A DNA stretch of 37,233 nt from Bacteroidota bacterium. GTDB taxonomy: Bacteria > Bacteroidota > Rhodothermia > Rhodothermales > UBA10348. Below, piece by piece: positions 4,975 to 12,733 of the stretch. The number at the start of each line of letters is the position of its first letter. Within the stretch, counting starts at the first letter, position 1. The DNA lies in the NCBI GenBank assembly GCA_022571255.1, contig JACZYD010000016.1, positions 1 to 37,233 on the forward strand, written 5' to 3'. The position numbers and the translations under genes were made by a program. The notes under the pieces are model-generated. The model had not been told where the DNA came from. It did not search any database and saw only the letters and a list, made by a program, of their open reading frames with translations.

Positions 4975-6801
4975 ATGGCCAGGATTGAAGTCACAATGCC
5001 CAAAATGGGTGAAAGCATTACCGAAGGAACGGTAATAGAGTGGCACAAGCAGCTTGGCGACTCCATCGAACTCGATGAGTCGTTGCTTGAGATCGGAACT
5101 GACAAGGTAGATACGGATGTGCCATCGCCAGTAGCCGGAATCCTGGCAGAAATACTGGTACAGGAGGGCGAGGTGGTCGATGTGGGTACAGTCATTGGGC
5201 TTATCGAGACCGATGGGGCCGCCGAGACCGATGGGGCCGCCGAGACCGATGGGGCCGCCGAGACTGATGGGGCCGTCGAGACCGAAACATCTGTTGAGCC
5301 GAAAGGCGCGAAATTGGAAGACTCGAAGGCGGAAGATCCCCCTGAGGTGGAAGAGGTGGAAGTTGCGGAGATATCAGCTGTCGGCGTGACCGTACAGGTA
5401 ATCATGCCCAAAATGGGCGAAAGTATCGTTGAAGGGACCGTACTGAATTGGGCGAAGGCCGAAGGCGACAAAATTGAGTTGGATGAAACGCTTCTCGAAA
5501 TCGCCACGGACAAGGTGGATACGGAAGTGCCTTCTCCAGCCGCCGGTACACTCATTGAAATTCTGGTTCCCGAAGGTGAGACCGTGGACGTGGGCACTCA
5601 TATTGCCACGATTGCAACGCGTGCATCTTCCAACAAAGGTGCGGCGTCTTCGGCAAACGTGGCAGGACAAGGATCATCCCCGGCTCTGGATACACAGTCC
5701 TCAGAGCGGGCGACTGCCGCGCCAACCACACCGACTGCCCCCGCCGCGTCAACCACACCAACCGTGGGCCCGACAGAAGCTGTTTCGTCGCCGGGGTCAT
5801 TATCCCGAAACCTGGCCGATGGTCGGTTCCTTTCGCCGCTTGTCAGATCCATTGCCGAAGCTGAAGGGGTTACGCTTGCAGAGTTGACGTCTTTGAAGGG
5901 CAGCGGTCGTGGTGGGCGCATCTCGAAGAAGGATGTATTAGCGTATGTGAAATCCCGCACGAGGGGTTCTGCGCCGACTACTTCCGGTGGTCAGGGAAGT
6001 GACAGAAAAAATGCTGCGGTTACAGCCGGTGCCGCATCCAGACGGTTACTTTCAGCAGAACTTGCGGTGCCCGCCACAGCAACAGGAGACCGGGTGGAAG
6101 TGGTCAAGATGGACCGTATGCGCCGGATCATTTCGGAACACATGATTCATTCCGTGACGACTTCGGCGCATGTTACATCGTTCGCTGAAGTGGACGTGTC
6201 TCGACTGGTTCGAATGCGTGAAAGAAACAAAGAAGCCTTTCTTGCCCGCGAAGGAGTCAAATTGACGTACACGCCATTTTTCGTGTTCGCAGCCGTCGAA
6301 GCGCTGAGGGAGCATCCGATCCTTAATGCGTCCGTGCAAGGAACAGACATCCACTACAAGAAAGATTATCATATTGGAATAGCCGTCGCCATAGGCAAGA
6401 CGGGACTGGTAGTACCTGTCATTCATAATGCGGGCCAGAAAAATATTGTAGGCCTTGCACACGCAGCTTCTGATCTTGCGATCCGAACCCGGAGTAAACA
6501 ACTTCTTCCGGATCAACTTCAGGGTGGCACCTTCACGGTCACCAATATTGGATCGCTCGGGTCCATTATGGGAACACCGATCATTCACCAGCCACAGGTT
6601 GGAATTCTGGCGACCGGAGCGATCACAAAGAGGCCGGTTGTCATCGAAGATCCCATACTTGGAGATACCATTGGCATCCGAAGCATGATGTACGTGTCTC
6701 TGTCGTATGACCACAGGATCGTTGATGGTGCCATGGGCTCGTCTTTTCTGGCAAAATTCAGAGATGTCATCGAGTCTCTGGACCCGACCGAAGAGATCTG
6801 A
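4975..6801 (+). CDS. 2-oxoacid dehydrogenase complex E2 (dihydrolipoyl acyltransferase), two lipoyl domains
   Basis: The core subunit that carries the acyl group on lipoyl-lysine and transfers it to CoA. Domains in order: lipoyl domain 1 (about 1-78, lipoylated Lys44 in GTDKVDT); an acidic linker of ETDGAA repeats; lipoyl domain 2 (about 140-215, Lys180 in ATDKVDT); an Ala/Pro/Thr-rich linker; the E3/E1-binding peripheral domain (about 285-322, FLSPLVRSIAEAEGV ... GRGGRISKKDV); and the catalytic domain (about 365-605) ending in the active-site motif DHRIVDG with His580. Length is 608 aa, consistent with a two-lipoyl E2. Substrate (pyruvate, branched-chain or 2-oxoglutarate) cannot be read from motifs alone. 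The fused E1 at 25.9-28.1 kb is a plausible partner. No E3 is in the window. A hairpin terminator follows the stop codon. Confidence 0.93.
   Translation: MARIEVTMPKMGESITEGTVIEWHKQLGDSIELDESLLEIGTDKVDTDVPSPVAGILAEILVQEGEVVDVGTVIGLIETDGAAETDGAAETDGAAETDGAVETETSVEPKGAKLEDSKAEDPPEVEEVEVAEISAVGVTVQVIMPKMGESIVEGTVLNWAKAEGDKIELDETLLEIATDKVDTEVPSPAAGTLIEILVPEGETVDVGTHIATIATRASSNKGAASSANVAGQGSSPALDTQSSERATAAPTTPTAPAASTTPTVGPTEAVSSPGSLSRNLADGRFLSPLVRSIAEAEGVTLAELTSLKGSGRGGRISKKDVLAYVKSRTRGSAPTTSGGQGSDRKNAAVTAGAASRRLLSAELAVPATATGDRVEVVKMDRMRRIISEHMIHSVTTSAHVTSFAEVDVSRLVRMRERNKEAFLAREGVKLTYTPFFVFAAVEALREHPILNASVQGTDIHYKKDYHIGIAVAIGKTGLVVPVIHNAGQKNIVGLAHAASDLAIRTRSKQLLPDQLQGGTFTVTNIGSLGSIMGTPIIHQPQVGILATGAITKRPVVIEDPILGDTIGIRSMMYVSLSYDHRIVDGAMGSSFLAKFRDVIESLDPTEEI
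5206..5277 (+). repeat. Four 18-bp tandem repeats in the E2 linker
   Basis: Four units of GAGACCGATGGGGCCGCC follow one another; three are identical and the fourth has two changes. They encode ETDGAA, ETDGAA, ETDGAA and ETDGAV in the flexible linker after lipoyl domain 1. Confidence 0.95.
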
Positions 6802-6822: not shown

Positions 6823-6987
6823 CCGTCGTAGTAATCTGACGTATCCGGAGATCAATTTCCGTTATTGACAATGTCCGTGATGTACGTTTCCTTTACTTTC
6901 GGGATGTATGTCATGTGATATTCCGTTATATAAAAGGAGATCATCAAGGGCACAGCCCCGACCGTTTTCACAGTTCATCCGAATAAC

Positions 6988-7932
6988 ATGCCCCGAAGCG
7001 AAGTCGTTGCCGGTTCCGAAAACGAACAGGACGAAGTTCTGGACCTCTCGATTCTGGAACTCCAAAGCAGGATTCAGAACTTTCTGGGGGAATATCTTTC
7101 AGAAAGGAGTCGTGAGACAGTGGGCACATATCGCCGTTCTTTGAATGAATTCGAGCGGTGGTTTGTGAAGCGATCCGTGCATTGCAGATTCAGGTCATCA
7201 GATATTGAGGCCTACAAGAAGTATCTGATGTTCGAAAAGGGTCTGCACGAGGTATCCGTGTCTACATATCTCACGGCCGTCAGACGATTGTGCCAGTATC
7301 TGGTTGATGTCGGACTTCTTGGCGAGAATCCGGCCCGGTCCGTGAAAGGCAATCGCCGACCGACGTCTCATTCACGAAAGGCATTGACCCGGACCGAGGT
7401 CGAGGTGCTTCTTGGCTCTCTTCCAGATGAAACGGAAATAGATCTTCGCGACCGCGCGATGATTTATCTGATGCTGTACGGGGGTATGAGTGAGATCGAA
7501 ATTGTACGGGCTGATATGCAGGACTTGGATCAGACACTGCTGGGTTGGTATTTGAGAGTCCAGGGGAAAGGGCACACTGCGAAGGATCAACAAGTTCCTA
7601 TAGATCTTCCTGTAATCAACGCCATTCGATTGTATCTGGATGCCAGGCAACGCATCCGGCCCGAGGACCCGCTGTTTGTCTCACACGGACATCGAAGTGA
7701 CGGACAGCGACTGAACACGAGATCAGTTCGCAGCAGAATAAATCACCATCTGACTGTGGCCGGTGTCAAAAGGCCGGGTATCTCGCCGCACAGTCTCACG
7801 CATACCGCAGCATTGATCTGGTTGAACGATGGTATGTCTGTGGAAGATGTCCGCCGGCGGATGCGCCACGGCACGCTTGATACCACAATGATCTACTTCA
7901 AACAGCAGGGATCGCTCTCAAGCTCCGAGTAG
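6988..7932 (+). CDS. Tyrosine-recombinase (XerC/D-like) family protein lacking both catalytic arginines
   Basis: Two-domain architecture of tyrosine recombinases: an N-terminal SAM-like core-binding domain (about 25-115) and a C-terminal catalytic domain (about 130-305). Length is 314 aa, normal. The nucleophile region is intact: RHGTLDTTMIYFK carries His294 and Tyr303. The beta-hairpin Lys194 (QGKGH) and His268 are also present. However, Arg I, normally in GLR-x-SE, is replaced (YGGMSE, Gly166), and Arg II of the HxLRH box is Thr271 (HSLTHT). Both changes are clear in the nucleotides, and no frameshift is needed to read through. In known family members these arginines hold the scissile phosphate, so the protein may bind DNA without cutting it, or have reduced activity. 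I give no gene symbol because a true XerC/XerD role is doubtful. It is followed tail-to-tail by porQ. Confidence 0.85.
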   Translation: MPRSEVVAGSENEQDEVLDLSILELQSRIQNFLGEYLSERSRETVGTYRRSLNEFERWFVKRSVHCRFRSSDIEAYKKYLMFEKGLHEVSVSTYLTAVRRLCQYLVDVGLLGENPARSVKGNRRPTSHSRKALTRTEVEVLLGSLPDETEIDLRDRAMIYLMLYGGMSEIEIVRADMQDLDQTLLGWYLRVQGKGHTAKDQQVPIDLPVINAIRLYLDARQRIRPEDPLFVSHGHRSDGQRLNTRSVRSRINHHLTVAGVKRPGISPHSLTHTAALIWLNDGMSVEDVRRRMRHGTLDTTMIYFKQQGSLSSSE

Positions 7933-8053: not shown

Positions 8054-8995
8054 TCAGAGGGAAGTCCGCACCGTAAAACGATGAAGTCCACCGAGTGACG
8101 ACCACGAACTGAATGCGTAATCAATACCTATTCGAGATATCTGCAGTCCGAACCCGGTGGATACCCCTGCAAAATCCAGCCTGGATTTTAATCCCAGTTC
8201 ATCATGTCGTCGAAAATTGTATCCAAGCCGAAGTTGAAAATTCCGGCTGAACTGAAATTCTCCACCAAGAATGACGTGATACATCAGGCGAGCAAGGTTC
8301 GAAAGCTCCTTCGGCGCTTCGCCAAGTTTGTTAATGCGATACATCGACAGGGTGAGAAGAAGCGGAGTGTGGGTAAGTTTTTTCGAAACGCCGATTCGAA
8401 GATCTACAGGAAGTCGGGCATTCTTGGACCCGATGGAAGACATTACGAAACCCGCGTGGTGTATCGTCAGGCCAATCGCCAGGCCTCTGTCGTCGACTTC
8501 ATATAACAATCCACCGTCGAAGGACAACGCCGATGCCGATTCTCCGTCCAGAGAACTCAGCAAGAAATGAACGTTTGCTCCATATCTCAGTCCTGAACTT
8601 GTAAGGCGAGAACCGCTGATCGACAGGTCAAGATCGGAGGCATTGAATGTTCCCGATCTCCTACCGTCCTGATCGGATCGGTCAATCGAACCAAACGATA
8701 AGTACCGGACTCCGATCCCAGCCGTTGAGAGCGAATCGACCTGAAATGCGTAGGCTACCGTACCCGAATTGAGACCCGCTACATGATTCAGATATGTCAC
8801 AGAAAACATACCGTGCATTTTTTCTGTCAGCAAAGCAGGGTTCGAAAAAAAGGATCCTGCATCGTTGGTTACCAGGGCCGGGGAGAAACCACCAGTCGCA
8901 GCAACCCGTGCAGTTTCCAGGATCTGAGTGACAGGAAACGAAGAAGATTCTATTTGCGCGTGCGCTTCACGCAGAGATGGAGGGCCTGCCGCCAT
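8054..8995 (-). CDS. porQ: Type IX secretion system protein PorQ (PorV/PorQ beta-barrel family)
   Basis: An outer-membrane beta-barrel protein associated with the type IX secretion machinery. In the family it works with PorU/PorZ at the cell surface. Recognisable N-terminal family blocks are LETARVAATGG, FFSNPALLTEKMHGMFSVTYLNHVAGLN and GIGVRYLSFGSIDRSDQDG. The rest alternates hydrophobic and polar residues, ends in an aromatic strand and is about 310 aa long, as expected. Start problem: this ATG falls inside what looks like a signal peptide. Reading upstream in frame gives VKTIRIAPGTCIAAVVLLY before the Met, and AHAQ some 12 residues after it looks like a signal peptidase site. No ATG, GTG or TTG lies between the in-frame stop at 9065-9067 and this Met, so the true start is unresolved. 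Finding it suggests the organism has a type IX system elsewhere. Confidence 0.82.
   Translation of the reverse strand: MAAGPPSLREAHAQIESSSFPVTQILETARVAATGGFSPALVTNDAGSFFSNPALLTEKMHGMFSVTYLNHVAGLNSGTVAYAFQVDSLSTAGIGVRYLSFGSIDRSDQDGRRSGTFNASDLDLSISGSRLTSSGLRYGANVHFLLSSLDGESASALSFDGGLLYEVDDRGLAIGLTIHHAGFVMSSIGSKNARLPVDLRIGVSKKLTHTPLLLTLSMYRINKLGEAPKELSNLARLMYHVILGGEFQFSRNFQLRLGYNFRRHDELGLKSRLDFAGVSTGFGLQISRIGIDYAFSSWSSLGGLHRFTVRTSL

Positions 8996-9346: not shown

Positions 9347-12733
<3,387 letters not shown>

Follow-up and report, generated by a model that had tools for sequence, protein, structure and literature searches.

Arg I and Arg II, the two arginines of the tyrosine recombinase active site, stabilise the transition state at the phosphate; Cre and Flp mutants that lack either of them need a neutralised phosphate for rescue (PMC4499138). 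Arg I is absent from IntDOT (CTnDOT), where another arginine further downstream reportedly takes its place (PMC8138268). In eukaryotes, tyrosine recombinases that are catalytically dead are on record, namely Crypton-derived genes and Ndc10; in the domesticated proteins (DUF3504/Crypton-derived; Cbf2/Ndc10, Gcr1) the fold was kept after catalysis had been lost (PMC3212892). In Ndc10 the recombinase fold is described as persisting in a DNA-binding or regulatory role (as cited in PMC6077249). Among the bacterial systems XerS works as a single recombinase with its gene next to its own site (PMC5357621), and XerD has been described as a sequence-specific SMC unloader (as cited in PMC12322038). In the literature searched we found no description of a catalytically dead tyrosine recombinase which is near-universal in a bacterial order and has relatives in other classes.

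Here we describe a candidate for such a protein. The window, i.e., the whole stretch of DNA that was analysed, comprises 37,233 nucleotides from a member of the Rhodothermales. The host genome has 3.29 Mb and is 99% complete; its named relatives include Rhodothermales MAGs, Roseithermus, Salinivenus and Salinibacter. The gene and its orthologues are called family A, a pseudo-Xer family; families B and C are other Xer proteins of this order. The gene and its active-site positions are the following:

6988..7932, + strand: pseudo-Xer ORF of family A, encoding 314 aa, coordinates with the stop; matches to PF00589 and PF02899, orthologues
7489..7491, + strand: codon 168 (AGT, Ser), Arg I position; alignment with XerD, XerC/D, families B and C
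7567..7569, + strand: codon 194 (AAA), catalytic Lys of the beta-hairpin, retained; alignments, codon reading
7789..7791, + strand: codon 268 (CAC), His of box II, retained; alignments, codon reading
7798..7800, + strand: codon 271 (ACG, Thr), Arg II position; joint alignment, codon reading
7867..7869, + strand: codon 294 (CAC), His/Trp position, retained; alignments, codon reading
7894..7896, + strand: codon 303 (TAC), position of the nucleophile Tyr, retained here and lost in about one quarter of the orthologues; alignments

The ORF is translated into 314 aa with no internal stops. Pfam identifies a phage integrase catalytic domain (PF00589, 70.4 bits) and two SAM-like N-domain matches, i.e., both parts of a tyrosine recombinase fold are present. 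E. coli XerD (PDB 1a0p) is the top PDB sequence match and aligns without a gap. An AlphaFold model built from 27 sequences (mean pLDDT 77.5, pTM 0.60) matches XerA, Cre, XerH and XerD, with XerA as the best fold match. Coordinates, translation, Pfam and fold matches thus agree with an earlier, sequence-only reading which had noted a full-length tyrosine recombinase in an open frame. The scores are far from the NCBIfam equivalog cut-offs for XerC and XerD (TIGR02224, 119.6 vs 335.15 bits; TIGR02225, 111.3 vs 329.6 bits).

The register of Arg I and Arg II was set by the gap-free XerD alignment and by a joint alignment of family A with 17 XerC/D, 16 family-B and 9 family-C proteins. The catalytic set R-K-H-R-(H/W)-Y reads SKHTHY in the window's protein. 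The sequence-only reading had claimed the loss of both arginines, with Thr271 (ACG) at Arg II and Lys194, His268, His294 and Tyr303 preserved, all of which is borne out; its assignment of Arg I to Gly166 was out of register, because in both alignments Arg I falls on Ser168. Gly166 corresponds to the glycine of the GLR motif, identical in 101/101 orthologues; of the Gly and Thr for which orthologues were to be tested, the former is shared by all, Thr271 by 91 of the 101. A displacement of the arginines to 174 or 290, which had been named as a possible objection, is unsupported by the orthologue and joint alignments. Position 290 is unconserved in family A. The columns of R174 and R291 are not Arg in XerC/D, the former being specific for family A, the latter nearly invariant. 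R291 is still present in members without His294 and Tyr303 and thus is not tied to catalysis. Displaced catalytic arginines at 174 or 290/291 thus find no support in the joint alignment.

The orthologue set consists of 101 distinct sequences from Rhodothermales and one sister lineage (f21). In a search of 100 relatives identities were 58-76% across the order and 34-45% in one divergent family, f15; at a strict E-value the gene is present in 71 of the 74 Rhodothermales genomes of good quality. The Arg I column contains Ser (85), Thr (7), Ala (5), Gly (2) and Asn (2), and never Arg. The Arg II column contains Thr (91), Val (4), Ser (3), Arg (2) and Cys (1); the two proteins with Arg at 271 (L071 and L073) have both lost other catalytic residues. 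Orthologues with the arginines in place, which the sequence-only reading took as a sign of sequencing error, are therefore not what the Rhodothermales provide. SKHTHY is found in 67/101 orthologues, and most Rhodothermales members keep Lys, His, His and Tyr. Tyr303 is replaced in 24/101 rows, two of which end or misalign near this residue; it is Ser in lineages f10 and f12, and mostly Asp, Asn or other residues in f15, where the histidines are mostly lost as well at an unchanged syntenic position. In the sister lineage f21 the two Arg positions are occupied by Thr and Val. Within the main clade the box-II segment is very conserved. dN/dS was 0.035-0.173 in the five closest pairs, including one without the Tyr (L080/L081, 0.173), and 0.149 in another Tyr-less pair (L074/L075); a few f14 pairs reach higher values, at most 0.44. 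Catalytic loss across the family and purifying selection, the marks of a domesticated pseudo-recombinase, thus occur together.

A sample of the phylum contained A-like proteins of 31-50% identity in other classes. Together with family A they form one clade (SH-aLRT 100) apart from XerC/D, B and C; family A does not group with XerC or XerD and sits in a separate clade on a long stem. Outside the order the six residues are mostly SKHRHY or SKNRHY in one group, and SKFRIY in another. The complete RKHRHY occurs in one of 135 wider-family members, L204, a distant homologue from another class, and this single protein shows that the wider family is not wholly dead. Its nearest relatives, L205 and L208, carry Gln at Arg II, such that this sub-clade is RKHQHY or RKHRHY. 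The simplest reading of a quick tree would be a loss of Arg I at the base of the wider family and a later return in this sub-clade. The six catalytic columns rank between 39 and 129 of 287 in conservation within the wider family; XerC/D and family B show no variation in the same columns, and family C varies there only in one row at Tyr (L143, a truncated protein). Of 19 columns conserved at 97% in the wider family, none is catalytic and ten belong to the N-domain.

Rhodothermales possess further Xer proteins: family B in 57/100 and family C in 36/100 genomes. B and C are largely mutually exclusive (Fisher p = 2.6e-6, uncorrected for relatedness). Their catalytic sets are complete, except for a degenerate B in Salinibacter-type genomes. 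In L123, L124 and L147, all of this type, the degenerate B adjoins another integrase gene, which in L147 is a family C member. The sister lineage f21 has canonical XerC and XerD beside family A. The proposed search for intact XerC and XerD elsewhere thus succeeded in f21; in the Rhodothermales it led to B and C with complete sets. Many B and C genes are directly preceded by dif-like inverted repeats with arms of up to 12 bp and a 6-bp centre:

L094:3354, L095:3417, L097:2185, L142:3370 and L102:1998: dif-like inverted repeats by B or C genes, among others

The 12-bp arms are perfect in L094/L095 (TACTTCCGATAA-GAACTG-TTATCGGAAGTA) and in L097 (AATGCAACATAA-GTATTG-TTATGTTGCATT). With this layout, which resembles XerS-type systems, B and C with the adjacent repeats are candidate single-recombinase systems for chromosome dimer resolution in Rhodothermales. 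Matches to the canonical dif pattern ATAAN6TTATGTNAA were overall no commoner than those to a reversed control. The palindrome CGATAAN6TTATCG was found genome-wide in 7/30 genomes, beside B in only some of those. Near the family A gene a single dif-like palindrome (L035) was seen among 99 distinct loci scanned.

Could family A be a non-catalytic partner, occupying one arm of a site beside an active Xer (B, C or XerD) and assisting a strand exchange carried out by that Xer alone, as a scaffold-like XerC? A protein without chemistry of its own can still hold a synaptic complex. Further, most genomes encode an active-looking Xer alongside family A, and in three single-contig genomes (G028, G049, G058) A and B are the only PF00589 proteins. 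Yet the palindromes of B and C, with their 6-bp centre and perfect 12-bp arms in L094, L095 and L097, suggest that one recombinase occupies both arms. Family A accompanies B alone in 35 genomes, C alone in 21 and neither in 7; it is also kept in genomes with both, and beside XerC and XerD in f21. As it is retained whichever of B or C is present, an obligate partnership with one of the two is unlikely. In Salinibacter-type genomes, where B itself has lost catalytic residues, A is still conserved. A partner role is therefore unlikely.

We also consider it improbable that family A is still active, as a tyrosine recombinase or a topoisomerase-like enzyme whose phosphate-binding residues are displaced in the manner of IntDOT. 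Such an enzyme would suit the retention of Lys, Tyr and the two His in most members, the strong conservation of box II, the A-specific R174 and the nearly invariant R291, which is absent from XerC/D. On the other side two arginines are missing, not one, and Cre and Flp mutants without either are rescued only by a chemically neutralised phosphate (PMC4499138). The Tyr was lost in separate lineages whose close pairs are under purifying selection, R291 outlasts His294 and Tyr303, and the lost residues differ between classes. The comparison with IntDOT in the sequence-only reading is apt as far as the absent Arg I is concerned and goes no further: Arg II is Thr271, and in the joint alignment the residues just before Lys194 include no family-specific Arg as a candidate substitute (Gln at 192; R190 also occurs in XerC/D). 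Nor is the gene carried by a mobile element. It occupies an order-wide syntenic housekeeping locus, flanked in the window by the following genes:

4975..6801, + strand: lipoyl acyltransferase E2, conserved upstream neighbour; Pfam, synteny
8054..8995, - strand: protein without Pfam match, conserved downstream neighbour ("PorV-like" as shorthand only); synteny
9347..12733, + strand: SecA, conserved neighbour; Pfam, synteny

Most family A genes, those of f15 included, are located in this block of E2, the PorV-like gene (shorthand) and SecA; in L125 (f3) the neighbours are different. A scan of viral contigs found no relative of family A, and on these grounds a viral origin was rejected.

The intergenic region ahead of the gene contains a conserved element:

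6859..6869, + strand: CCGTTATTGAC, 11 bp, putative operator/promoter; upstream alignments of family A
6865-6870, + strand: -35-like box TTGACA, overlapped by the TTGAC of CCGTTATTGAC; sequence pattern
6888..6893, + strand: putative weak -10-like hexamer TTCCTT (TTNNTT in the alignment), 17 nt past the -35-like box; column information from 69 promoters
6923..6929, + strand: second partial copy CCGTTAT, immediately 5' of AAAAGGAG; sequence inspection

Most of the regions upstream of orthologues share CCGTTATTGAC. An alignment of 69 promoters shows the G and two T positions to be invariant; most other core positions carry 1.6-1.9 bits, and the flanks are near random. With at most one mismatch TCCGTTATTGA occurs in 66/99 upstream regions vs 3-7 for the best word in shuffled sets. 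The element is kept in L125 despite its different upstream gene, and a similar AATTTCTGTTATTG precedes relatives of family A in three genomes of other classes. It is missing upstream of family A in f15, f21, f9 and some f13 genomes. Lineage f12 retains roughly ATANCCGTTAT without TTGAC, and in several lineages the first CCGTTATTGC is followed by a second one about 43 nt downstream; this argues that the element is more than a -35 box. A simple sigma-70 scan called no promoter at the element in the window, despite the sigma-70 look of TTGACA-17 nt-TTNNTT. Third codon positions in this region are about as conserved as the others, which makes a signal at the nucleotide level likelier than a coding leader peptide. 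A general promoter motif was rejected as well, since exact CCGTTATTGAC copies number 0-3 per genome and those away from family A mostly lie inside coding sequence. In genus g3 the element forms a near-perfect palindrome of 15-17 bp (TCAATAACCGTTATTGA). The window's own genome has another intergenic CCGTTATTGAC (L191:2013) 5' of a 656-aa ORF, which could be a second target or chance. The TTAT core and specific bases after it resemble Xer arm sequences, a weak sign that family A may bind the element.

The same counts bear on the idea that family A binds near the terminus and organises the chromosome, in analogy to Bacillus XerD, to which SMC unloading has been attributed. Its order-wide chromosomal conservation would suit this role, as would the description of XerD as an SMC unloader (as cited in PMC12322038). 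A recurrent high-affinity-like site was not found: CCGTTATTGAC is present 0-3 times per genome, outside family A mostly in coding sequence. This role is thus very unlikely. Sequencing error or a decaying pseudogene, for which we found no supporting points, can be dismissed in view of 101 orthologues without Arg at 168, open frames and low dN/dS.

We consider it likely that family A is an ancient Xer recombinase which lost recombination early and turned into a sequence-specific DNA-binding protein, probably autoregulated. Several observations favour a DNA-binding reading: the order-wide loss of the arginines, the repeated loss of Tyr and His, purifying selection, the shift of conservation towards the DNA-binding half, and the presence of another active-looking Xer in most of the genomes. 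Of the two possibilities raised by the sequence-only reading, the DNA-binding derivative is therefore preferred; catalysis by other residues is less likely, though conceivable for members that keep Lys, His, His and Tyr. An Xer-type recombinase would have lost its ability to recombine early in the family's history; its two-domain clamp would still wrap a site without cleaving it, because the two phosphate-neutralising arginines are Ser and Thr. One likely site is CCGTTATTGAC, which covers family A's own -35-like box; binding there would result in negative autoregulation. The fold and the conserved upstream element suggest DNA binding, the missing residues suggest that recombinase activity is absent, and autoregulation, like any wider regulatory or chromosome-organising role, is likewise inferred. 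The main reason against greater certainty is that most Rhodothermales members retain Lys, His and Tyr. The box II of the main clade, conserved beyond what a relic should require, also counts against a pseudo-recombinase, as does L204 with its complete set. Against autoregulation, the element could be another regulator's site or mainly a promoter feature, and several lineages lack it. More tentatively, and with rather more doubt than belief, we consider a history in which a chromosome-dimer recombinase became a self-regulating DNA-binding regulator in several classes of one phylum, with Arg I lost at or near the root, later lineage-specific losses, and gene and operator kept together.

If this is confirmed, the automatic annotation of the family A gene as a "recombinase" would be misleading. 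The family would further offer a natural series, i.e., intact, Arg I lost, both arginines lost, all lost, in which the requirements of DNA binding can be tested. Finally, it would suggest that Rhodothermales rely on other Xer proteins for resolving chromosome dimers.

How does family A compare with known systems? With XerC/XerD and XerA/XerH it shares the two-domain fold, the length, the retained Lys/His/His/Tyr, the chromosomal location and vertical inheritance; it differs by the absence of both catalytic arginines, by its separate clade, and by scores far below the NCBIfam cut-offs. Like IntDOT it lacks Arg I, but IntDOT is active, mobile and equipped with an arm-binding domain, whereas family A also lacks Arg II and is not mobile. 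The streptococcal XerD-like protein, a chromosomal Xer relative which is not known to recombine dif, may be comparable, yet belongs to another phylum and gene context. The domesticated eukaryotic recombinases are Crypton-derived or Crypton-related, whereas family A is bacterial and Xer-like, and keeps more of the catalytic pocket.
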